From positions 62,001 to 126,000 of the forward strand of contig JAIOPV010000072.1 of assembly GCA_021413735.1 (NCBI GenBank): DNA of 64,000 bases, written 5' to 3'. The notes below the pieces were generated by a model. The model had not been told where the DNA came from and ran no database searches. It was given only the letters and a program-made list of their open reading frames with translations. How positions within the stretch are numbered: the stretch's first letter is position 1; every line of letters begins with the position of its first letter. The position numbers were made by a program, and so were the translations under genes. This DNA is from Planctomycetota bacterium (GTDB lineage: Bacteria > Planctomycetota > Planctomycetia > Gemmatales > Gemmataceae). This document shows, in pieces, positions 23,074 to 36,181 of the stretch.

Positions 23074-26000
23074 TCACTTCTTGATGGGAGACTTCTCGCC
23101 GGGCTTGACGAACGTGATCCGCACGGCAGGGCGTCTTCCTTCCGCTGGCACCACGGTTTCCTCGACTGTCGCAACCACAAGCGGCGGGTGCGACCCAGAA
23201 CCGAAGGCAGGCCGAGGCATCGGAGTCGCATTCGCGTCGGGCTTTGCGACCGGCGTCGAACCGAAGGCCGCGCGGGGGGCTGGCGTTGCGCCAGTGTCCG
23301 GTTGCGGCGATGGCGCACTCAAGCCCGCAATCGCGATCTTCACCATCGGCTTCAGCGAGGGATTAGAAGGCGGTTTCGAGGCAGACGCATCCGCAGGTTC
23401 GCCGTCGGGATCGAGGGTATAAAGCGGTTCCTGTTCGGCGGGAGGCGACACAGGTTTTGAAATCTCCACGGGCTTCGACGCTTCAGCCTTCGGCACTGCG
23501 GGCATGCTCTTCCCTGAGCCGCTTGCGTCGGCATCGAGCGAAAGAACCGCCCCGGCTGCCGCGGATACCGGTTCCACCTCATCAAGCGTGAATACCTCAG
23601 ACTCGGAGCCGTCGGCGTTCTCGCTCGTCGCAGCGGGGACCGCGTCGAGCATCGAGCCGATCGCCGACCCAAACGCAACCGATGCGGCAGGCATCGGCGG
23701 CAGTTCGTTCGCCACGACCGGCGCGACGACTTCGACAACCGGCGCGGGTTCGGCTGCCGGCACTTCGGGAACTGCTTCGGCTGCAACAACCACTTCGCTT
23801 TCGATTGCCGCCGCTGGAATCGGCAACTCGGGTGCAGGTTCGGCCGGTGCCTCTGCAACCGACGGAATGATCGGGGCGGTTTGCGCTTTCATCTCAGGTT
23901 CCGGCTGGAACGAAAAGGTCTGCTCAACCTCAACCGGCGCAGAAACGACAGGTTCAACTGGCACCGCGAAAGCAGGTTCAACTGGCACCGCTGGCTCGGG
24001 TTCGATTTCGAGCGAGATCGCCGGAGCGACTTCCGCAGGCAGAGCGGGTTCAGCCTCGATCGCAGTTTCGAGAACCGGTGCTGGCTCCTCAACCGCTGCC
24101 GGCTCGGCGACCGCAACATCGAGAACCGCAGCGTCTGGCACGACGACCGGCTCACTCGCAATCGGCACATCGGAAATCGGTGGCACGACCACCGGTTCCG
24201 CAATCGCCTCCGCAACGACCGGAGCCAGCACTTCCAATGTGGGTTCCAACTCCACCGGTGGCTCGCTCTCCACGATATCTGCCGAAGTCGGCAGAGGCTC
24301 TGCCACCGAAATCAGTTCAGCCCTCGCGGCGGCAATGACCGAGATCGGTTCCGAAACGGGCGTTGCCTCGGCCACAGCCTCGGCGGGAACGGCCTCTGCG
24401 ATCACGAACGATTCGTCTTCAGCAGACGCGGCAATGAACGATTCTTCCTCAGCAGACGCGGCAATGAACGATTCTTCCTCAACCGACGCAGCAGGAATCG
24501 GCGACTCAGATGTCTGCGGCGTGAGCGGTGGAGTCTTCACAGAGATTGCCGCGAGCGGGGGAGCTTTCGGTTCGGCCGCGTCGCCCTCGACCACCCTGAT
24601 TACCTCATCGGAAATCGTTTCTCCCTTGAGTTCATCAACAGCGGGTGCCACAGGTTCGGCCGGTAGGCCGGCCATCGCGGGCATCGTACTCGCCACGGGC
24701 AGCGTGGACATCGTGATGACCGAAGGCAGCGTGGACATCGTGTTGACCGAAGGCAGCAACTCTGGCGGCACAGAGACGACCGGAATCGGCTCCTCGACGG
24801 GAACCAAGCTGATCGACTCGACCGCTTTCGGAATTTGCAACTCCCCAGATTCCAGCACGATTCTGGGGATGTCCTGGCCTTGCGTCTGCACCGGCGACGG
24901 ATACGTGATCTCGGGATACTCCTTGTCGATGTATCCCTGAACTTCGCGTGCATCGATCAGATCGGCGTTCTTCCGGATGTGGAACACCACCCGGTAGAAC
25001 TCATACGACATGTGTTCTTTGAGGTCGTCCACGTTGGCGAACAGGATCCACGGCGAGCGGTGATCCATCACGGCCGGGACGAAATGCTCCTTGGCGTTTT
25101 CTTCGCGGTCGGCGTTCGCTGGATGTCCTCGCCACATCGGCGGGGTGTCTTCGTCTTCGTACTCTTCTCGTTGGCTGTCGAAGATTCGGACCTTTTCGCC
25201 AGAGTTCGGTTGCGGCAGCGCCGGCGGAAGCCCAAGGTCCGGCTGCTGATTCTTCCATCGTACAATCGCTGCGGCCCGATCCTGGTGTAGATACATATCG
25301 TTCGAGTAAAGGTCGTGATCTTCGGCCAGGTGAACCAGTTCGTCGATTGCCTCGTTGAAGCATTGCATTCCGAATCGAACGCGAAGCAGGCTGTGCGTGA
25401 GCGCGTCGCTGCCGGCGGCGCTGACCGCCACGAGATCGGCGTGGAATTCTTGTTCCCAGGCCATCGCACGCCCAGGCAACGCGACCGCTTTCAGGATGAG
25501 CCAGAGAACCGCGTGACCAGCCTCCAGAATCCAACTCACGGGGTAGACCACCGGCCACGTCAGCATCTTGAGTTGGAACCCGCGATCCGTTTCCGGGTTG
25601 TGCTTGCACGCTTTGAGAAAGCGGTCGAAGAAATCCTCGCCTTCGATCAAGTCGAAGACGATGTTCTGCACCACTGCGCAGGAACTCTTTGAGCGGCCCA
25701 AATGGCAGAATTGCCCGAATTCGTGAGCGAGAACGGCCTTGAACTCGCTCAGATTCGTACAGTTCACCAACCCCATGCCGATGAGCAGATCGCGTTTCGG
25801 TTCGGTGAACAAGTTGAAGATCGAAGTGCTGACGGTGTATTCCGCGATCACGTCGGGACACACATACACGCGGTTCGGGAACGGTGCTCCGAGTTCGTGG
25901 CACAGTTGCTGGAGGAAATCGAACAGCAGCGGGTGTTCGTCGTCGTGAACCTCGACGTACATTTCCCGGTTCACGGCGGGCCGTTTGAAGAAGCCTTTCA

Positions 26001-26253
26001 CCAGGAACAGGACAAAGATGGTGGACAGGACAACGCCGACAATCTTGAGTACGGCCGGACCACTGGAAAGCGTGAGCGCGCACCAGACTCCAACCATCGC
26101 GAACAAAACGATCATCGTGAAGTAGAAGATCAGGAAAACGAACAGGCCCGTGAGAACTCGGTTCTGTTGCTTCGCGTACGAGTCGGCGTAGTCGGTGAGC
26201 CCTTCGGGCACATCGGGGGGACTTGGCGGATACAGGGTTTTCAACTCGGACAT
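23074..26253 (-). CDS. M48-like membrane metallopeptidase with altered HExxH and long low-complexity tail
   Basis: This 1059-aa protein has two transmembrane helices (about residues 33-62 and 70-88) and an M48/HtpX-like domain to about residue 330. The usual zinc motif HExxH reads HEFGQ (His 177, Glu 178, Gln 181), and FCH places a His at 184. The third-ligand motif EQEFHADLVAV is intact. From about residue 470 to the end the protein is low-complexity Pro/Val/Ala/Glu, with a repeated SFIAASAEEE block at about residues 600-625. It may be an inactive peptidase or scaffold. The coding sequence is confirmed by the intact frame and the conserved domain. Confidence 0.82.
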   Translation of the reverse strand: MSELKTLYPPSPPDVPEGLTDYADSYAKQQNRVLTGLFVFLIFYFTMIVLFAMVGVWCALTLSSGPAVLKIVGVVLSTIFVLFLVKGFFKRPAVNREMYVEVHDDEHPLLFDFLQQLCHELGAPFPNRVYVCPDVIAEYTVSTSIFNLFTEPKRDLLIGMGLVNCTNLSEFKAVLAHEFGQFCHLGRSKSSCAVVQNIVFDLIEGEDFFDRFLKACKHNPETDRGFQLKMLTWPVVYPVSWILEAGHAVLWLILKAVALPGRAMAWEQEFHADLVAVSAAGSDALTHSLLRVRFGMQCFNEAIDELVHLAEDHDLYSNDMYLHQDRAAAIVRWKNQQPDLGLPPALPQPNSGEKVRIFDSQREEYEDEDTPPMWRGHPANADREENAKEHFVPAVMDHRSPWILFANVDDLKEHMSYEFYRVVFHIRKNADLIDAREVQGYIDKEYPEITYPSPVQTQGQDIPRIVLESGELQIPKAVESISLVPVEEPIPVVSVPPELLPSVNTMSTLPSVITMSTLPVASTMPAMAGLPAEPVAPAVDELKGETISDEVIRVVEGDAAEPKAPPLAAISVKTPPLTPQTSESPIPAASVEEESFIAASAEEESFIAASAEDESFVIAEAVPAEAVAEATPVSEPISVIAAARAELISVAEPLPTSADIVESEPPVELEPTLEVLAPVVAEAIAEPVVVPPISDVPIASEPVVVPDAAVLDVAVAEPAAVEEPAPVLETAIEAEPALPAEVAPAISLEIEPEPAVPVEPAFAVPVEPVVSAPVEVEQTFSFQPEPEMKAQTAPIIPSVAEAPAEPAPELPIPAAAIESEVVVAAEAVPEVPAAEPAPVVEVVAPVVANELPPMPAASVAFGSAIGSMLDAVPAATSENADGSESEVFTLDEVEPVSAAAGAVLSLDADASGSGKSMPAVPKAEASKPVEISKPVSPPAEQEPLYTLDPDGEPADASASKPPSNPSLKPMVKIAIAGLSAPSPQPDTGATPAPRAAFGSTPVAKPDANATPMPRPAFGSGSHPPLVVATVEETVVPAEGRRPAVRITFVKPGEKSPIKK

Positions 26254-28197: not shown

Positions 28198-29547
28198 TCA
28201 ACCCGGAACTTCACCCTTGGTGCTGAAGTTCTCCAGAATTCGATTGATGAACGGCCGACTGGTCGTTTTGTAACGATCGAACTCGAGCCGATCGACGGTG
28301 TACACTTCCACGCGATCAATCGCCCGCACGGTCGCATTCCGGGGCTTATCCATCAGCAGCGCGACCTCGCCGAAGTACCGCCCAGGCCCAAGTTCCGCGA
28401 CCTTCCGCAACGCCCCGCCCTCGGGCGCCCGCCACACTTCCACCGTGCCGCGACGGATCAGGTAGAACTTGCTGTGCTCGTTGACGGGGTCGCCCACCTT
28501 CACGATATCTTGCCCTGGCTCGTAAACCTCGACCCGCCCTGGATGCGCTGCCACTTGGTCAGGGCGCACAGGCAAATCCGGGTGGACGCCGATCAGCAAC
28601 TCGTCTGCGATCTTCTGCTGTTCGTCGGGCAGAATGGCCGCGAACGCCGCACTCTGACGCAAGCCATCTCGCACGAAGATCCGTTCCGCGACGACGACGT
28701 TCGACTCAATGCGGCCGCGTTCCATGTGAACGATGCGGTCGGCGAGGTTCATGATGCGGGCGTCGTGCGTGACGATCAGACTCGTGGTTCCCGTTTCGCG
28801 TGCGAGCGACCGCAACAGCGGAATCTGCCACGGTGCGAGCCGGGCCGCTTCGCCGGCCTCTTCGTCGGGCCTCACGAGCTTCGCCAATTCTTCATCCGAA
28901 CGAGTGCGGGCAAGATTCTGAAGCAGCGTGACGACCGCCAACCCGGTGTTGGCGTCGAGTGCGGCTGTGGGTTCGTCAGCGAGGACAAGCTTCGGGCGAT
29001 TCACGAGGGCACGCGCCACTGCCACTCGCTGACGCTGCCCGCCGGAGAGTTGTGCTGGTTTATGGTAGAACCGCACCTTCTGCGGTTTCCCCTGGATGTC
29101 GAGGTCGCCGAGGATCAGGTATTGCAGCAGTTCGCGTGCGTCGGCGTCCGGGTCGCGTTCGTTGTCGCGGAGCCGCTGCGCCATGCGAATGTTCTGCATC
29201 GCGGTGAGCGAATCGAAGAGGTTGTGTCGCTGGAAAATGAAGCCGATCAGCCGGCGAACGTGAACGAGTTCCGGTTCGGGCGTGCCCAAGAGTTTGCGGT
29301 AGTCGCCACGGTCGCCGTCCCAAACTTCGATCTGCCCTTCCTGGAGTTTGCGAAGGCCACCGATGAGCGTGAGAATGGTCGTTTTGCCCGACCCCGACGG
29401 CCCGCTCATGATGACGAGTTCGCCGGGCATCACTTCAAGCGTGTTGTTGAAGAGAACCTGTGTTCGCGTTTCGCCAGTGCCGAAATAGTGGTTCACTCCG
29501 GTGATGCGGAGTACGGGCGAACCCGGCGGCGGCAAACTTGATGGCAT
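28198..29547 (-). CDS. DevA-type ABC exporter ATPase fused to a cyclic nucleotide-binding domain
   Basis: The protein is 449 aa. The N-terminal ABC domain has Walker A GPSGSGKTT, signature LSGGQRQRVAVARAL and Walker B LVLADEPTAALD. A linker of about 70 residues follows. Then a cNMP-binding beta-barrel occupies about residues 340-430, with FYLIRRGTVEVWR, GPGRYFGEVALL and the phosphate-cassette-like PRNATVRA. ATPases of the MacB/DevA class normally lack this domain, so export may be gated by a cyclic nucleotide or another ligand. The permease gene at 29638-30867 lies directly upstream with a hairpin element between. Confidence 0.9.
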   Translation of the reverse strand: MPSSLPPPGSPVLRITGVNHYFGTGETRTQVLFNNTLEVMPGELVIMSGPSGSGKTTILTLIGGLRKLQEGQIEVWDGDRGDYRKLLGTPEPELVHVRRLIGFIFQRHNLFDSLTAMQNIRMAQRLRDNERDPDADARELLQYLILGDLDIQGKPQKVRFYHKPAQLSGGQRQRVAVARALVNRPKLVLADEPTAALDANTGLAVVTLLQNLARTRSDEELAKLVRPDEEAGEAARLAPWQIPLLRSLARETGTTSLIVTHDARIMNLADRIVHMERGRIESNVVVAERIFVRDGLRQSAAFAAILPDEQQKIADELLIGVHPDLPVRPDQVAAHPGRVEVYEPGQDIVKVGDPVNEHSKFYLIRRGTVEVWRAPEGGALRKVAELGPGRYFGEVALLMDKPRNATVRAIDRVEVYTVDRLEFDRYKTTSRPFINRILENFSTKGEVPG

Positions 29548-29574
29548 GGTTCCTCGTTCACGAAGACACGCGTA

Positions 29575-29625
29575 GCCGCGACCCGAAGGGGAGCGCTTTG
29601 GTCACGCTCCCCTTCGGGTCGCGGC
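29575..29625. repeat. perfect 21-bp inverted repeat
   Basis: The arms 29575-29595 and 29605-29625 are perfect reverse complements with a 9-nt loop, between the exporter permease stop and the ATPase start on the minus strand. Inside a presumed operon it may reduce ATPase expression or stabilise the upstream message. Confidence 0.9.
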
Positions 29626-29637
29626 GAAACGATTCAC

Positions 29638-30867
29638 TCAAAACACATCAGCGGGGTCCACCTTCTTCACCTTGCCCACGGCCAGCCATGCGCTCGCCCC
29701 ACACATCGTCACCGTGAGCAACAGCACCAACCCTGCACGGCCGAGCGTCAGTTCCATCGCAAGCCCCGTGATGTCCGTGAGGATCGCGTAAGTGCCGAGA
29801 ATCACGAGCAACCCCGGAACGAACCCCGCACCCGCCAAGATGAGCGATTCCTGCAACACGATGAGACTGAGGTAGCGGTTCGGGTAGCCGATGGCCTTGA
29901 GCGTCGCGTATTCCGTAACGTGATCGGCGATGTCACTCGACAGGATTTGGTAGCAAATCACAAGCCCAACGACGAAGCCCAGCACAACGCCCGCCCCGAA
30001 AGCGAAGCCGATCGGCGTGTTCGACCACCAGAACCACTTCTCGCGAGCGACCATCTCCGGCACTGTCAGCACATCGACATCGCCACCGGAGGAATAGATC
30101 GCCTGGAGTCTGTGTTGCACGCCGTCGCGGTCAGTTCCGGGTCGCAGCCTGACAGCCACGAGGTCGATCTCGGCGAGCGGATCGCTGCCGGGTGCGGCAT
30201 ACGGAGCGCGAATCCATGCTCCATATGTGCGATCGCTGACGATGAGTGTGCCGTCGGTGCCGAAGTCGAACCCCATGTCGAAACCGTTGCCGACGAGCGT
30301 GATGTCGCGGCCCGCGAGTTCTGTTTGCACGCCGTCCGCGAGTTTGCCGAAAACCGACTCGCCTGGGTGATTCACCTGATCGGGGTGCTTTCGACTCTTG
30401 CGATCGTAGAGTGCGGTGCCAGGTACGCGAAGCCGTTCCCAGTCATCGGCAGTAACGCCGGGCAGGTTCAGCAATTTTGCGTCTGGATCAACGCCGACGA
30501 CACGGATACGGCGAGTCTGCGTGCGTTCGCCAGGGTTCGCGGAAGTGTGACGCAGCATCCCGAGTTGGTAGTCCACATACAGCGGTTCGATGGAGCTGAC
30601 GCCATCGACTTCGAGAGCCTGTTCTGCCCGCCGCCGGTTGACGCCTTCGCGAAACAGCAGTGACTTGCGAGTGGGGCTAACGAGTACGAGATCGGCGTTC
30701 ATGCGTTGGAGCAGCACAGTGTTGCTGTCGAGCATGGCGTTCATGATGCCGAGTTGCACACCCATGAGCACGACGGCGAAGCCGATACCAGCCGTGAATA
30801 GAGCGAACCGCACGCGATCGTGTGCGAGGTTGGACCAGGCGAGAGGAACCGCAGGAGGACGAGGCAT
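29638..30867 (-). CDS. DevC-like ABC exporter permease (FtsX/MacB fold), copy a
   Basis: This 409-aa protein has an N-terminal transmembrane helix (FALFTAGIGFAVVLMGVQLG), a large extracytoplasmic domain of about residues 50-270, and three C-terminal helices (FGAGVVLGFVVGLVICYQIL, SLIVLQESLILAGAGFVPGL and VLLLTVTMCGASAWLAVG), ending KVDPADVF. This is the DevC/MacB-type topology. It is encoded just upstream of its fused ATPase and divergent from the LRR kinase. A paralog with the same terminal DPADLF lies at 33394. Confidence 0.9.
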   Translation of the reverse strand: MPRPPAVPLAWSNLAHDRVRFALFTAGIGFAVVLMGVQLGIMNAMLDSNTVLLQRMNADLVLVSPTRKSLLFREGVNRRRAEQALEVDGVSSIEPLYVDYQLGMLRHTSANPGERTQTRRIRVVGVDPDAKLLNLPGVTADDWERLRVPGTALYDRKSRKHPDQVNHPGESVFGKLADGVQTELAGRDITLVGNGFDMGFDFGTDGTLIVSDRTYGAWIRAPYAAPGSDPLAEIDLVAVRLRPGTDRDGVQHRLQAIYSSGGDVDVLTVPEMVAREKWFWWSNTPIGFAFGAGVVLGFVVGLVICYQILSSDIADHVTEYATLKAIGYPNRYLSLIVLQESLILAGAGFVPGLLVILGTYAILTDITGLAMELTLGRAGLVLLLTVTMCGASAWLAVGKVKKVDPADVF

Positions 30868-31022
30868 GATTGGAGTTACCGCCGAACTACACCGTGACCA
30901 TGTGACTTCCTCTGGTTACTTCCCAGCAGTATATCACGATTCGCAGCACGGAATCGGCGCTTTGGCGGCACGACAAGCCACGGATAAGATAAGCCGATCG
31001 CAATTAGCTTGGGAGCGACGGC

Positions 31023-33380
31023 GTGAATCACCCACAACCCAATTCCTCGCCATCGTCAGTGCCCGAAGCGTCGGCCGTTTCCTCGAACGACTCAACCAAC
31101 CCCGTCTCCGTTACCCCACATCAGGAACCAGCCGAATCGCCAAGGTTCAGCCCAGCAACCAACGCGGGCGAAATCGGACGCCTCGGCAGATACCGCATCC
31201 AGAAAGAACTCGGCCGCGGCGGAATGGGTGCCGTCTACCTCGCGTTCGATGAACGACTCCAACGGAAGGTCGCGCTCAAGGTGATGCTTCCGAAAGCGGC
31301 AGCCAACATGAGCGCGAAGGAACGCTTCCTCCGCGAAGCCCGTGCCGCCGCCCGGATCAGTAGCGATTATGTCGTGAACATCCACGAAGCCGACGAGTTC
31401 GATGGTATCCCGTACATCTCGCTGCAATACCTCCAGGGCTACCCACTCGACGATTACCTCAGCAAGCACGGCAACCCCTCGATTCCGCAGATCATTCGCA
31501 TCGGTCAGGAAGCGGCATTAGGCTTGCACGCGGCCCACCAACTCGGACTGATTCATCGCGACATCAAGCCCGCCAACCTCTGGCTCGAAGCCCCGAACGG
31601 CCGCGTGAAGATTCTCGACTTCGGCCTCGCCAGGCAACTCGACGACAATGTTCAACTGACCCGAAGCGGCGCAGTGGTTGGCACGCCAGCGTTCATGTCG
31701 CCGGAGCAGGGACGCGGTTTGCCGATGGATGGGCGAAGCGATCTCTTCAGCCTCGGCGGAGTGCTGTATCGACTGTGTGCGGGCCGGTTGCCATTCCACG
31801 GCGACACGACGATGGCATTGCTGATGTCCATCGGAATCGACGAACCCGTTCTCGTGCGTGATTTCAACCCAGACGTGCCGAAGCCGCTCGCAAATCTCAT
31901 TCACCGGCTGCTGGCGAAAGACCCTGCACACCGTCCGCCGACTGCACAAGCCGTGGCCGACGAACTGAACGCGATGGCCAATTTATCGGCGGGCTTACCC
32001 CCCGGTGGTCAACCGCAGATCGTGTATGTACCGATGACGATTACCGCTGTCGAAGCGAACCCGTTCGCCGACATCACCGACGGCAACGCGAGCAATGCAA
32101 GCAGCGAATCTCTTCCCTCGACGCAACTGGAATTCGTGCCTGAGAAAGCCCAGAAACCGTTCCCGAAGTTGCTGGTTGGTTCGCTGGTGTTCGCGCTGCT
32201 CGTGGTGATCGGGGCTGCATTCCTCCTCATGAACAACCCGAAGAAGCCCGACACCGAGATTGCGGACAAGCTCCCGGATGTGACGCCGACACCACCCGTT
32301 ATTCCCCCGAAGGTCACACCGACGAAAGATACCGAGCGAGCCGCTGCGAACTACGTGCTCGATATCGGAGGCCAAGTGAAGGTGAACGGCCAACCCGAGA
32401 TGTGCGATAACCCTGCCCAACTGCCGAAGGAACGTTTCCGACTAACCGGTGTGTATCTCCTCACGAATAGGTTGGTAGACGATCAGGGATTGGCCAAGTT
32501 GAAGGAGTGCAGAAGCCTCAACGCTCTTCGCCTGAGCGACACGAAAGTAACCGATCAAGGGTTGATGAACCTCAAAGATTGCACAGCTCTGACGTATCTC
32601 GACTTGAGCTTCACGAGGGCGAACTTGACGAGCGCCGGGGTCGTGAATTTCAAAGATTGCAAATGCCTGGAATATCTCGATCTGAGTGAAACACAGGTCG
32701 ATGATACGGCAGTTGAAATCATCTCGGGGATGAGGGTACTCACGAGCCTCTATGTCCCAAAGACCCGGATCAGCCCCGAGGGGGTGAAAAAACTTGCCGC
32801 AGCATTGCCTCGATGCAAGATTCTGCACGACGGCGGCGAAATCAAGCCGATGCTTGACCCCGAAAGACGGATCGCGGAATACGTCATTTCGATTGGCGGC
32901 ACGGTCAAGCTCAACGACCAAGATAGCCCCTACAAGGCGACGGCTGATTTGCCGAAGGAACCGTTTCGGGTGACAGTCGTGAACCTTGATGGCAGCAAAC
33001 AGGTGACCGACGTGGGTTTGGCGATCATCAAGGATTGCCAGGCTCTCAAGGAACTTCACCTCGCGCAAACGCCGATTACCGACGTGGGTTTGGCGTTCTT
33101 CGAGGGCTGCACAACCCTCACGCTGCTCGATCTGCATGAGACGAACACCGGCGATGCTGGCATGGCTAACTTCAGCAAATGCAACAACTTCTCCCGGTTG
33201 TTTCTGTCGAGCACGAAGATCGGCGACAAAACCCTGAAACAGTTGTTGAACACGACCGCGTTGGCGGAGTTGGATCTGGCAACGACGCAGGTGACGCCAG
33301 CGGGGGTGAAGCTGGTACGGGAGCGCTTCCCGAAGGCCAACATTTACGGCGCTCCCGCCGAAATCGAGCCGAAGAAGTGA
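31023..33380 (+). CDS. Ser/Thr protein kinase with membrane helix and two LRR modules
   Basis: The protein is 785 aa, with a GTG start preceded by GGGAG. The kinase domain spans about residues 57-320 with GRGGMGAVY (64-72), Lys 86, HRDIKPAN (catalytic Asp 180) and DFG at 199-201, so it appears active. A single transmembrane helix lies at about 382-403. The extracytoplasmic part has two similar modules, each starting with an IGGxVKxN strand and followed by short LRRs (LNALRLSDTKVTDQGLMNL; LKELHLAQTPITDVGLAFF). It lies between the two DevC-like permease genes but on the opposite strand, so it may sense the exporter's substrate. Confidence 0.92.
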   Translation: MNHPQPNSSPSSVPEASAVSSNDSTNPVSVTPHQEPAESPRFSPATNAGEIGRLGRYRIQKELGRGGMGAVYLAFDERLQRKVALKVMLPKAAANMSAKERFLREARAAARISSDYVVNIHEADEFDGIPYISLQYLQGYPLDDYLSKHGNPSIPQIIRIGQEAALGLHAAHQLGLIHRDIKPANLWLEAPNGRVKILDFGLARQLDDNVQLTRSGAVVGTPAFMSPEQGRGLPMDGRSDLFSLGGVLYRLCAGRLPFHGDTTMALLMSIGIDEPVLVRDFNPDVPKPLANLIHRLLAKDPAHRPPTAQAVADELNAMANLSAGLPPGGQPQIVYVPMTITAVEANPFADITDGNASNASSESLPSTQLEFVPEKAQKPFPKLLVGSLVFALLVVIGAAFLLMNNPKKPDTEIADKLPDVTPTPPVIPPKVTPTKDTERAAANYVLDIGGQVKVNGQPEMCDNPAQLPKERFRLTGVYLLTNRLVDDQGLAKLKECRSLNALRLSDTKVTDQGLMNLKDCTALTYLDLSFTRANLTSAGVVNFKDCKCLEYLDLSETQVDDTAVEIISGMRVLTSLYVPKTRISPEGVKKLAAALPRCKILHDGGEIKPMLDPERRIAEYVISIGGTVKLNDQDSPYKATADLPKEPFRVTVVNLDGSKQVTDVGLAIIKDCQALKELHLAQTPITDVGLAFFEGCTTLTLLDLHETNTGDAGMANFSKCNNFSRLFLSSTKIGDKTLKQLLNTTALAELDLATTQVTPAGVKLVRERFPKANIYGAPAEIEPKK

Positions 33381-33393
33381 GCGGGACCATTCC

Positions 33394-34611
33394 TCAAAAC
33401 AAGTCGGCGGGGTCGGCTGCGTGAACCTTCCGCACCGCGAGCAACCCAGACGCCAGGCACATCCCCAGCGTCAACACCAACACGCCGACAGCAATTTCAA
33501 CCGTCATGCCGGTGGGAATGCCGCCCCACTTGCTGGCCACGACGTAAAGCACCAGTGTCGCAAAGAACCCCGGAACGTAGCCCAGCACCGCCAGCAACGC
33601 AGCCTGCCACAACACCACGCTCGTCAAGTACGACGGACGGTAACCAAGAGCCTTCACCGTGGCGTATTCGGGCAGCATGTTCTGGATGTCAGCCGCCATC
33701 ATCTGATAGACGAAGATGACACCGACGACCACCGCGAGGATGACGGCCACGATGAGGAACTGCCCGATTGACGTGAGCCGCAGCCAGTAACGTCGTTCGT
33801 CGGCGTTGAGTTCGGCTCGCGTGTACACCTTCACATCCGGCGGCAGCACGGCCCGCAACTCACGCTGAACGGCGATTGGGTCGGCACCTTTGCGAAGCTG
33901 AACTAACCCAAAGTCGATGGCGTCGGCACGGCGACCCGTGAAGCGATCGAGGGTTTCTTCGCTCGAAAGCAGCATACCGTTCCAACTGAAGCCTGTGCCG
34001 AGTTCAAACGAGCCCGCAACCGCCGCCCGCATGTTGTTCAACCGAATCGGGTCGCCGGTTTCTTGCTGCGACGCGGCGATGAGTTGCTTCACGTCGCCGA
34101 AGTCGGGCTTCGAGCGGCGGTCGATCAGGAACGCATCGAGACGCGAAATCGCAGCGCCGCCGATCCTCGCATCCTCGGGCGTGCGGAAGACGCCATTCGG
34201 GCCAATCGTGAACGCTCGGTCGATCTGTTCGGGCGGCACAGCCAACAGCGTGATCGACATGACCGCGCCGCCGGGCGTGGTGCCGAACAAGCCGGTGCGA
34301 GTGGGTGCCCGCCAGGCGCCCCCCGCGAACGAAAGCGGCACGACATTCTCGACGTCACTGACGGCCCGAGCCTGTGCCAGCCTGGAACGCGGGAACTGCT
34401 CTGTCCGGCTCAGATCCATGTATTCCGACGACGTGATGAACAGGTCGAAGTTGAGTTTGTCGAACAACATCGTGGCCGTGCGACCGACGCCACCGAGCAG
34501 ACCGAGTTCCATGAAGATGAGGATGACTGCGAACGCGACGCCACCCGCAGCGATGGCCGTGCGTGCCCGCTTGTGAGCGAGGTTCGACCATGCGAGCCCG
34601 AGGGGCGTCAC
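33394..34611 (-). CDS. DevC-like ABC exporter permease, copy b
   Basis: This 405-aa FtsX/MacB-type permease has an N-terminal helix (GGVAFAVILIFMELGLLGG), an extracytoplasmic domain of about residues 45-270 and three C-terminal helices, ending VHAADPADLF. It starts with GTG at 34611, overlapping the stop of the membrane fusion gene by 4 nt (GTGA), which implies translational coupling. It converges with the kinase gene, leaving 13 nt between stops. It is paralogous to 29638-30867. Confidence 0.9.
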   Translation of the reverse strand: MTPLGLAWSNLAHKRARTAIAAGGVAFAVILIFMELGLLGGVGRTATMLFDKLNFDLFITSSEYMDLSRTEQFPRSRLAQARAVSDVENVVPLSFAGGAWRAPTRTGLFGTTPGGAVMSITLLAVPPEQIDRAFTIGPNGVFRTPEDARIGGAAISRLDAFLIDRRSKPDFGDVKQLIAASQQETGDPIRLNNMRAAVAGSFELGTGFSWNGMLLSSEETLDRFTGRRADAIDFGLVQLRKGADPIAVQRELRAVLPPDVKVYTRAELNADERRYWLRLTSIGQFLIVAVILAVVVGVIFVYQMMAADIQNMLPEYATVKALGYRPSYLTSVVLWQAALLAVLGYVPGFFATLVLYVVASKWGGIPTGMTVEIAVGVLVLTLGMCLASGLLAVRKVHAADPADLF

Positions 34612-35798
34612 TTCCCTGGCTCCAGCGTCACCGTTACTTGAAGCCCGACGAAGCGGCTCGCGTCAACGATGGCGTCGGGGTTCAGATGCACGACAACCTC
34701 GATCACGCGGCGGTCGGCATCTTCACGCGGCCCCATCGCGAACACCTGATTCTTCGCGATCATCCGCGAAATATCCTGTTCCGAATTCACCGTGCCCGTG
34801 AGCGTCTTCGGCAACGCCGGGTTCTTGATCTCAGCCTTCACCGGTCCAGCCTTCACCCACTTCGACAGCCGTTCGACGTCGCTCTCGTACACCTCGGCAA
34901 TCGCAGTCATCGCCGTGAGATCGGCCATTTGAAGAATCGGTTCCAGGCCGGTCGGCTGCCCTTCACGACCGATCACCTTCAGCACGGTGCCCGTGACAGG
35001 TGCCTTCAGAATGGTCTGATCGGAGAGCTGTTTCGCGAGCGTCAACTTCTCTTCTGTTGACTTGGTCGGCACCTTCGCGATGGCTTCATCCAGTTCTGCT
35101 TTCGCGGCAGCGATCTTCGCGTTGGCGGACTTCTCGGTTTCGTCGTAGGTCGTTTCGGTCTTCTTGCGGACAGCATCGCCAGCCTTGAACTCGGCATCGG
35201 CTTGCGCTGCGAGGAGCTTCGCTTTCTCCATCGTTTCCTCAGCGACCGGCGAACCACCCGTGCGAAGCTTTTCGAGGCGTGTCACGCCGGCGGTCGCCGT
35301 TTCCGATTGCAGTTTCAGATACGTCTGCTTCGCATCGAGAGCCGCGAGGTCGCTGGCTTTGTTCGCCTTCGCGAGATTCAACTCGGCCTCAGCCGCACGC
35401 ACTTTCTGCTCGCCCGCGACTTTTGCGAACTTCAGGGAGTTGTTCGCCTCGTCTTGCTGCGTCTCCGCGATCTGAAGTTCGAGGAGTCGGTCTTTTCGGC
35501 TCGCGAGATCGGCGACCGGCGTTCCCGCTTTGATGAGAGTACCGGGGCTCACGCCATACATCTTCGCAATGCGATCCCCAGGCGGACCGAACACCGGCAC
35601 GATGCTCCCCGACGGCTGAAGCCGACCGAGAGCCGTGACTCGTTCGGGACGATTCACAGATTGATCGGAAGGTATCGAAGGCGTGGCGGTGTTGATCGCG
35701 ATGAGATAGCCGCCAGCAGCGCCGGCCCCGAGAGCGGCGACCAGCGCAAGCAGAAGTTCCAAACCGCGACCAGGGCGATTCGATGGAGAACGAATCAT
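34608..35798 (-). CDS. DevB/HlyD-type membrane fusion protein
   Basis: The protein is 396 aa from ATG 35798; an apparent upstream extension overlaps the DUF3307 gene and is rejected. A membrane anchor lies at residues 12-36, followed by the HlyD barrel start (VTALGRLQPSGSIVPVFG), a long alpha-helical hairpin of about residues 115-240 rich in Ala, Lys and Glu, and a closing beta region (TILKAPVTGTVLKVIG). It connects the ABC permease to an outer-membrane channel. The permease gene follows with a 4-nt overlap. Confidence 0.9.
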   Translation of the reverse strand: MIRSPSNRPGRGLELLLALVAALGAGAAGGYLIAINTATPSIPSDQSVNRPERVTALGRLQPSGSIVPVFGPPGDRIAKMYGVSPGTLIKAGTPVADLASRKDRLLELQIAETQQDEANNSLKFAKVAGEQKVRAAEAELNLAKANKASDLAALDAKQTYLKLQSETATAGVTRLEKLRTGGSPVAEETMEKAKLLAAQADAEFKAGDAVRKKTETTYDETEKSANAKIAAAKAELDEAIAKVPTKSTEEKLTLAKQLSDQTILKAPVTGTVLKVIGREGQPTGLEPILQMADLTAMTAIAEVYESDVERLSKWVKAGPVKAEIKNPALPKTLTGTVNSEQDISRMIAKNQVFAMGPREDADRRVIEVVVHLNPDAIVDASRFVGLQVTVTLEPGK

Positions 35799-35800
35799 GT

Positions 35801-36181
35801 TCACCCCTGTGGAATCGGCCCGAGAATGCCAGAAGCCAGCAGCGAGAACCACAGCACCCGGCAGATGATGTGCATCGCTTGATCGATGTCGATGCCGTAA
35901 TACTTCTCGCACTTGCCAAGGTCGATGAACCAGTGGATCACGGTTTCCGCGAGGGCAATCGGCCAGACGGCATCCCAACCGAAGCCGAACCATCGCACGA
36001 CCACGCCGACCGCAGCACCGTGGAGCACAGCGTGTGCCGTGAGCCAGTAATACCACGGCACTGCCTTCGAGACCGGACTCTCGAACTTGCGGCACTTACA
36101 GGTGGCGATGGCATCGGATTGAAGTGCGTAGTCCATCAATGCGTGCGTTGAGACCAAAAAGAACAAGAGCGCGACCAGCAT
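35801..36181 (-). CDS. DUF3307 membrane protein
   Basis: This small 126-aa multi-pass protein has LVALLFFLVSTHALMDYALQ, HAVLHGAAVGVVVRWFG and ETVIHWFIDLGKCEKY. These histidine/aspartate-bearing helices are typical of the DUF3307 family. Function is unknown. The stop lies 2 nt before the DevB start, so it is probably co-transcribed with the exporter. Confidence 0.75.
   Translation of the reverse strand: MLVALLFFLVSTHALMDYALQSDAIATCKCRKFESPVSKAVPWYYWLTAHAVLHGAAVGVVVRWFGFGWDAVWPIALAETVIHWFIDLGKCEKYYGIDIDQAMHIICRVLWFSLLASGILGPIPQG

Follow-up and report, generated by a model that had tools for sequence, protein, structure and literature searches.

The 64,000-nucleotide stretch of contig JAIOPV010000072.1 analysed here (the window), from a planctomycete of the family Gemmataceae, contains the genes of an export system that is a variant of the DevBCA exporters, belongs to the type VII (MacB superfamily) ABC transporters and is real and conserved in the Gemmataceae. 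The system comprises a DevB-type adaptor, two different DevC-like permeases (A and B) and a DevA-family ATPase to which a cyclic nucleotide monophosphate (cNMP)-binding domain is fused; a gene for a serine/threonine kinase with leucine-rich repeats (LRRs) lies between the two permease genes. Taken together, the evidence makes it fairly likely that the locus encodes a heteromeric exporter of a DevBCCA type, which would be switched by a nucleotide through the cNMP domain of its ATPase and into which the kinase gene was inserted late. A preliminary description, made from the DNA sequence, had already named the ATPase, both permeases, the kinase and the adaptor with their coordinates, and these are confirmed by profile matches, apart from the start of the adaptor gene.

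The ATPase and its cyclic nucleotide-binding domain

The exporter is composed of the following genes and domains, with positions counted within the window:

34608–35798, minus strand: DevB-type membrane fusion protein (adaptor), 396 aa; TIGR02971, 279.7 bits
33394–34611, minus strand: permease A (DevC-like, adaptor side), whose GTG start overlaps the adaptor stop; TIGR01185, 251.7 bits; FtsX, MacB_PCD
29638–30867, minus strand: permease B (DevC-like, ATPase side); TIGR01185, 282.3 bits; FtsX, MacB_PCD
28198–29547, minus strand: DevA-family ATPase with a C-terminal cNMP-binding domain, 449 aa; TIGR02982, 326.5 bits; ABC_tran, cNMP_binding
28705–29514, minus strand: ABC nucleotide-binding domain of the ATPase, residues about 12–281; profile match and alignment, with a model resembling MacB/LolD ATPases
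28273–28530, minus strand: cNMP-binding domain of the ATPase, residues 340–425, with the cassette FGEVALLMDKPRNATV (Glu394, Arg403); PF00027, E-value 3.5e-17; phmmer matches to PKA/PKG cNMP domains

The proposal that this is a DevBCA-type exporter is supported, as the ATPase and the adaptor score above the cut-offs of the DevA (295.8 bits) and DevB (129 bits) families, and both permeases match FtsX and MacB_PCD above the Pfam cut-offs. The large periplasmic domain of these permeases and the separate MacB-like ATPase also agree with type VII. DevBCA systems have one kind of permease each, whereas the two permeases found here come from two clades, and the system is therefore filed as a variant and not as DevBCA proper.

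The fused cyclic-nucleotide domain was also correctly described (PF00027, 62.6 bits). In the ATPase part, the Walker A, Q loop, signature, Walker B and H loop motifs, read from the alignment, are intact, and a lineage-specific insert of about 36 residues (215–250; positions 28798–28905) lies between Walker B and the H loop; this insert is found in Gemmata and some near genera and is shorter or absent in other relatives. An AlphaFold model of the ATPase (mean pLDDT 83.9, from a 14-row alignment) matches the MacB and LolD ATPases with Z of about 28. Since the ATPase domain fills the lists of structural matches, the cNMP fold is assigned from sequence. The cassette contains the expected Gly-Glu and Arg and shares 12 of its 16 letters with site B of PKA RI-alpha, and a phmmer search against the sequences of solved structures returned the PCR12/TGME49_219070 chain (9ya0) first, followed by PKA and PKG regulatory domains. 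The genome of the window also contains two matches to class III cyclases.

The fusion is a regular property of the planctomycete systems. It occurs in all 34 complete ATPases of planctomycete two-permease loci and in 11 of the 18 ATPases from planctomycete loci in which a single permease was detected; these 11 are ten Gemmataceae loci that hold permease B only, together with locus L203, and the other seven, which lack the domain, belong to classical adaptor-permease-ATPase sets (L101, L103 and L198–L202). In these counts, loci L118–L123 were left out as duplicates of contigs already in the genome (G) series, and truncated ATPases were set apart (planctomycete L065, L129 and L132; others L157 and L180). 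Relatives outside the Gemmataceae come from a wider search in which at least 590 stretches matched and 582 encode a relative; all cyanobacterial and other non-Gemmataceae counts describe the best 80 of these, chosen by likeness to permease B. In that list, none of the seven ATPases of cyanobacterial two-permease loci and none of 40 one-permease ATPases from outside the planctomycetes (one of them, L173, a 76-aa fragment) carries a cNMP domain. The presence of the fusion in 34 of 34 cases, compared with none of the seven cyanobacterial and none of the seven classical planctomycete ATPases, indicates that it marks the planctomycete two-permease type.

The phosphate-binding acidic residue (Glu in 40 domains, Asp in five) and the Arg are kept in all 45 cNMP domains compared. 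Together with the constancy of the fusion, this supports, on sequence grounds, the earlier idea that nucleotide signalling acts through the ATPase and that a nucleotide would gate the exporter. It might instead be assumed that the domain no longer binds a nucleotide and acts in structure, dimerisation or protein contacts. Folds of this type without a ligand exist, and five of the 45 cassettes carry Asp in place of Glu; however, retention of the acidic residue and the Arg in every case, along with the close agreement with PKA RI-alpha, exceeds what a scaffold would need, and we regard loss of binding as rather unlikely.

Other sensory domains were observed on DevA proteins or at related loci. 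Two DevA ATPases, one from Myxococcota and one from a proteobacterial metagenome-assembled genome, have a C-terminal GAF domain recognised by Pfam (L170:4630-6048 and L190:8012-10534), and a DevA protein from Binatia (L157:9172-10973) has a C-terminal part that looks GAF-like by eye. GAF on DevA seems to be an independent gain of a fold that senses ligands. In two genomes of another genus, a large protein with 4Fe-4S matches and a cNMP domain of its own is encoded directly upstream of permease A (L062:4029-6941 in genome G087; L109:2000-5041 in G089), at loci in which the adaptor was not detected.

Two permease paralogues

The two permeases represent separate lineages. The permeases compared amount to 195 rows, drawn from Gemmataceae, other planctomycetes, cyanobacteria and a small number of further phyla (including 12 rows from L118–L123; the permease of L108 is a fragment and is in no tree), and an IQ-TREE analysis was performed on 80 of them. 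In this tree, a branch with support 100/99 sets 31 adaptor-side permeases apart from the rest, 31 ATPase-side permeases form another group (100/98) and 18 DevCs from one-permease systems form a third (89/82), which rules out a local duplication as the origin of the pair. Each of the seven cyanobacterial two-permease loci has one member in the adaptor-side and one in the ATPase-side clade; an apparent eighth, L177, looks like two tandem one-permease systems. Thus, the pair either predates the split of these lineages or has moved as a pair.

Both permeases are also kept together across genomes. Among loci fetched from 95 Gemmataceae genomes, both types are present in 43 of the 45 genomes that have either; in each of the remaining two, G003 and G046, the permease extends to a contig end. 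In ten of the 43, A and B are encoded at different places, and in G004, G006, G026 and G074 this occurs on long contigs and is not an assembly break. That both are kept even when unlinked argues for joint working, and permeases A and B probably work as a pair. By analogy with other type VII transporters, in which LolC and LolE form heterodimers and MacB and FtsX form homodimers, A and B would be expected in one channel. The heterodimer suggested as a possibility in the preliminary description would fit the clades and the co-occurrence, but the argument then offered for it, that both permeases end with DPAD-x-F, is rejected: both window permeases do end in this way, but a C-terminal DPAxxF is found in 62 of 67 single permeases, as well as in 47 of 65 type A and 48 of 63 type B rows (L118–L123 again included), and is thus family-wide.

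Alternatively, each permease could serve a homodimeric exporter of its own, with one ATPase in common, and the two exporters would merely be neighbours. The adaptor-permease A and permease B-ATPase blocks do lie apart in some genomes, and one locus outside the Gemmataceae (L203:5273-7231, genome G102) has a B-type permease, which joins the ATPase-side branch in a FastTree tree, and a cNMP-ATPase, with neither permease A nor the adaptor detected within 11 kb. However, co-occurrence of the permeases extends to unlinked cases, neither block alone holds an adaptor, a permease and an ATPase, and the type VII relative LolCDE works with a LolC/LolE heterodimer (PMC5985334), all of which makes two independent pumps improbable.

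The kinase between the permease genes

The remaining features of the locus and its immediate neighbourhood are:

31023–33380, plus strand: Ser/Thr kinase, hydrophobic segment and LRRs, between the permease genes; Pkinase, 149.3 bits; LRR matches
30868–30901, minus strand: remnant of a small gene (start codon and three codons, then a stop); alignment of the G000, G016 and G022 gaps
29575–29625, no strand: perfect inverted repeat with 21-bp arms in the permease B-ATPase gap; inverted-repeat search
35801–36181, minus strand: small membrane protein of the DUF3307 family, at the head of the upstream block; PF11750, 40.1 bits
36246–37559, minus strand: MFS transporter (lactate-type), a syntenic neighbour not proven to be part of the system; NF049980, 344.7 bits

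The kinase is indeed transcribed opposite to the flanking permeases. Its glycine loop, VALK, HRD and DFG motifs are present, and a single hydrophobic segment (residues 383–401) is followed by the LRR matches. These features would suit a control unit with two inputs, in which the kinase would respond to a signal in the periplasm by phosphorylating the exporter while a nucleotide acts on the ATPase. The distance of 13 nt between the kinase and permease A genes (33381–33393) was correctly measured; however, it separates two 3' ends, and because the genes lie tail to tail, it is no hint of co-transcription. The kinase and permease B genes are head to head, 155 nt apart, and the spacing between permease B and the ATPase is 90 nt.

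Gene order and co-occurrence in relatives, named beforehand as able to refute kinase control, do not show a kept association. Among 19 genomes of the same genus (18 and that of the window, G000), 16 carry the two permease genes in a single locus; in G020 and G026 these genes lie at separate sites, and G015 lacks them. Only short permease gaps without a kinase are found in 13 of these 16 loci. The other three (G000, G022 and G016) contain kinases of two unrelated kinds: those of G000 and G022 are orthologues (support 100/98, 72.7% identity over the kinase domain), lie at the same place and are encoded opposite to the operon, but their LRR parts are only 29% identical over 228 aa, whereas in G016, the nearest sister by both permease clades, the slot is occupied by a WD40 kinase that is unrelated (40.8% over the kinase domain) and encoded on the same strand as the operon. 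Further kinase genes are found beside permease genes in G045 and G093. Nonetheless, with gene models that are crude longest-ORF calls, kinases account for five of 114 neighbours of exporter genes compared with four of 294 genes elsewhere in the same loci, which is not significant (p=0.12), and three of the five represent the one permease-gap slot. The adjacency stems from three places in the genome tree, or four events if the replacement in G016 is counted. Moreover, the genome of the window has at least 150 Pkinase matches (150 of 176 candidates scored), and a published survey of Gemmataceae proteomes counts 98 to 140 Ser/Thr kinases in each (PMC11032199). The tree, the gene order and the neighbour statistics thus rule out the kinase as a conserved partner, and a kinase-and-nucleotide unit is very improbable. 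It is curious that the gene found in the G016 slot is again a kinase, albeit a different one, and this constitutes the best remaining argument for kinase control.

On present evidence, the kinase is a passenger, and its gene appears to have been inserted late and to be replaceable. Between the kinase and permease B, G016 and G022 have a small gene (encoding 87 aa in G016), of which only the start codon and three codons before a stop are kept in G000; relatives of this gene are found in 13 of the 19 genus genomes, and in G016 it is the first of the small ORFs at this place (G016:C36:35619-35879, locus L043). The simplest history would be one insertion into the ancestral permease gap, after which G016 exchanged its kinase for another and the small gene decayed in G000. 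It was considered whether permease B has inherited a promoter from the lost gene, as a -10-like TATACT (30928–30933) aligns with TACAAT in G016 and G022; this is only a lead, and a consensus scan of 30840–31060 found no promoter or terminator.

In G016, the small gene is followed by an ORF that resembles, by eye, a RelE/ParE-type toxin, so that the two look like a toxin-antitoxin pair; neither of the two small ORFs beside the G016 kinase has a Pfam match. In G045, a solo kinase gene overlaps the start of permease B (L116:6064-6927, the same gene as L077:6064-6927), and the permease B and ATPase genes are separated by a P-loop ORF that, by eye, appears zeta-toxin-like (L116:8181-8762).

At the upstream end, the adaptor had been given a start at 36095, but that ORF overruns the DUF3307 gene. 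The start is likely the ATG at 35798, 2 nt past the DUF3307 stop, and the protein beginning there has an N-terminal hydrophobic segment. Relatives of DUF3307 are present in the exporter loci of relatives, and the MFS transporter gene adjoins the DUF3307 gene in ten same-genus genomes, that of the window included.

Long perfect or near-perfect inverted repeats, whose sequences vary between strains, occupy many of the short gaps between exporter genes. The hairpin listed above is one of 16 pairs of inverted repeats in the window. In gaps of 40–450 nt, measured to the model match and not to the start codon, the longest repeat exceeded that of all 20 shuffles in 15 of 18 permease A-B gaps, 11 of 19 adaptor-A gaps, eight of 21 B-ATPase gaps and two of six DUF3307-adaptor gaps. 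Scans of the window with Rfam (at gathering scores) and for tRNAs found nothing. Elsewhere in the window (23074–26253, minus strand), a 1059-aa protein without a Pfam match at E 0.001 has a long low-complexity tail; its AHEFGQF stretch, which precedes the tail, resembles an M48 peptidase motif minus the second His.

A putative nucleotide-gated exporter among known systems

In the mechanism that we favour, a heterodimer of permeases A and B would make up the membrane channel, the DevA ATPase, present below it in two copies, would drive export, and the DevB adaptor above it would join the pump to an outer-membrane duct of the TolC type. The genome of the window has 37 OEP-domain matches, among which such a partner may lie. 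As parts of the ATPases, the cNMP domains would be located in the cytoplasm, and a nucleotide could there control the rate of ATP hydrolysis; a messenger of this kind, once bound, would probably switch ATPase activity on or off, and export would thereby follow an intracellular signal. Insertion of the dispensable LRR kinase gene would have cut one operon into two blocks. The pump probably exports a substance through the planctomycete envelope, and a lipid or glycolipid is suggested as cargo only by the DevBCA relatives. As a further clue to the substrate, co-occurrence with a PfaA-like polyketide synthase (PKS) was considered (44 of 45 exporter genomes vs. 35 of 50 others, p=0.0002), but it was not used because it is confounded by descent and completeness; G015, for example, has the PKS without the exporter.

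Some findings weigh against such a reading. Both permeases score below the TIGR01185 devC cut-off of 290.35 bits, which is exceeded by a match in 33 of the 95 Gemmataceae genomes, and on their sequences A and B are DevC-like paralogues, not certified DevC equivalogs. The adaptor is detected upstream of permease A in 49 of 59 rows; it was not detected in G009, G010, G087 and G001, among others, where the model may miss a diverged one. G015, of the same genus and 95% complete, lacks such an exporter. In a sample of the phylum, DevC occurs in four of 147 other genomes, three of which have classical one-permease sets, so that spread beyond the Gemmataceae rests on the best 80 of 582 relatives; the exporter is also present in Singulisphaera acidiphila DSM 18658 (L134), an isolate with a complete genome. 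Finally, a kept cassette does not name its ligand, because the cNMP domain of HetC, which is required in vivo, bound ppGpp and not cAMP in vitro (PMC10986499).

The planctomycete exporter shares the adaptor, DevC permease and DevA ATPase families with the DevBCA-TolC system of Anabaena, which exports heterocyst glycolipid (PMC6161253). The Anabaena system has one kind of permease, DevC, whereas the planctomycete system has two, and the one-permease DevA proteins examined are devoid of a cNMP domain. The cyanobacterial DevB-C-C-A loci, such as those of Fischerella PCC 9431 (L151) and Nodosilinea PCC 7104 (L153), have the same gene order and both permease clades, but their ATPases are only 248–284 aa long and, unlike the planctomycete ones, end without the cNMP domain. 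LolCDE is also of type VII and likewise combines two different four-transmembrane (TM)-segment permeases with one separate ATPase; it differs in having no adaptor and in trafficking lipoproteins to LolA. We know of no cNMP domain in LolCDE. HetC of Nostoc PCC 7120 is likewise an ABC exporter with a cNMP domain; however, it belongs to a different ABC exporter class, with a C39 peptidase, an N-terminal cNMP domain and a fused TM region. In MetNI and ModABC, which show transinhibition, an extra regulatory domain likewise gives allosteric control of an ABC transporter, although these are importers. Their regulatory domains are other than cNMP. Fusions of cNMP domains to MFS transporters are named in a review as one case of regulatory domains that can be recruited (PMC10710835). 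In the open-licence literature, no paper was found that joins DevBCA, or ABC ATP-binding proteins, with (C-terminal) cyclic nucleotide-binding, and only kinase work was found for Gemmata and cyclic nucleotide-binding; others may exist.

The kinase offers a caution for genome interpretation: where a genome encodes at least 150 kinases, the position of one beside a transporter is only a weak argument for control, and a tempting over-reading is corrected here. As a tentative generalisation, which we hold less probable than the reading of the locus itself, Planctomycetes, above all Gemmataceae, may use second-messenger-gated tripartite exporters, in which a cyclic nucleotide or ppGpp would bind the ATPase of a heteromeric DevBCCA pump and gate the export of envelope lipids; GAF-bearing DevA proteins would have arisen separately, and in one Gemmata clade the permease gap would have taken up kinases more than once, possibly as a second input. 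If nucleotide gating on the ATPase is true, it would provide these bacteria with a fast, post-translational control of export, for which HetC and ppGpp constitute the only close published case found.

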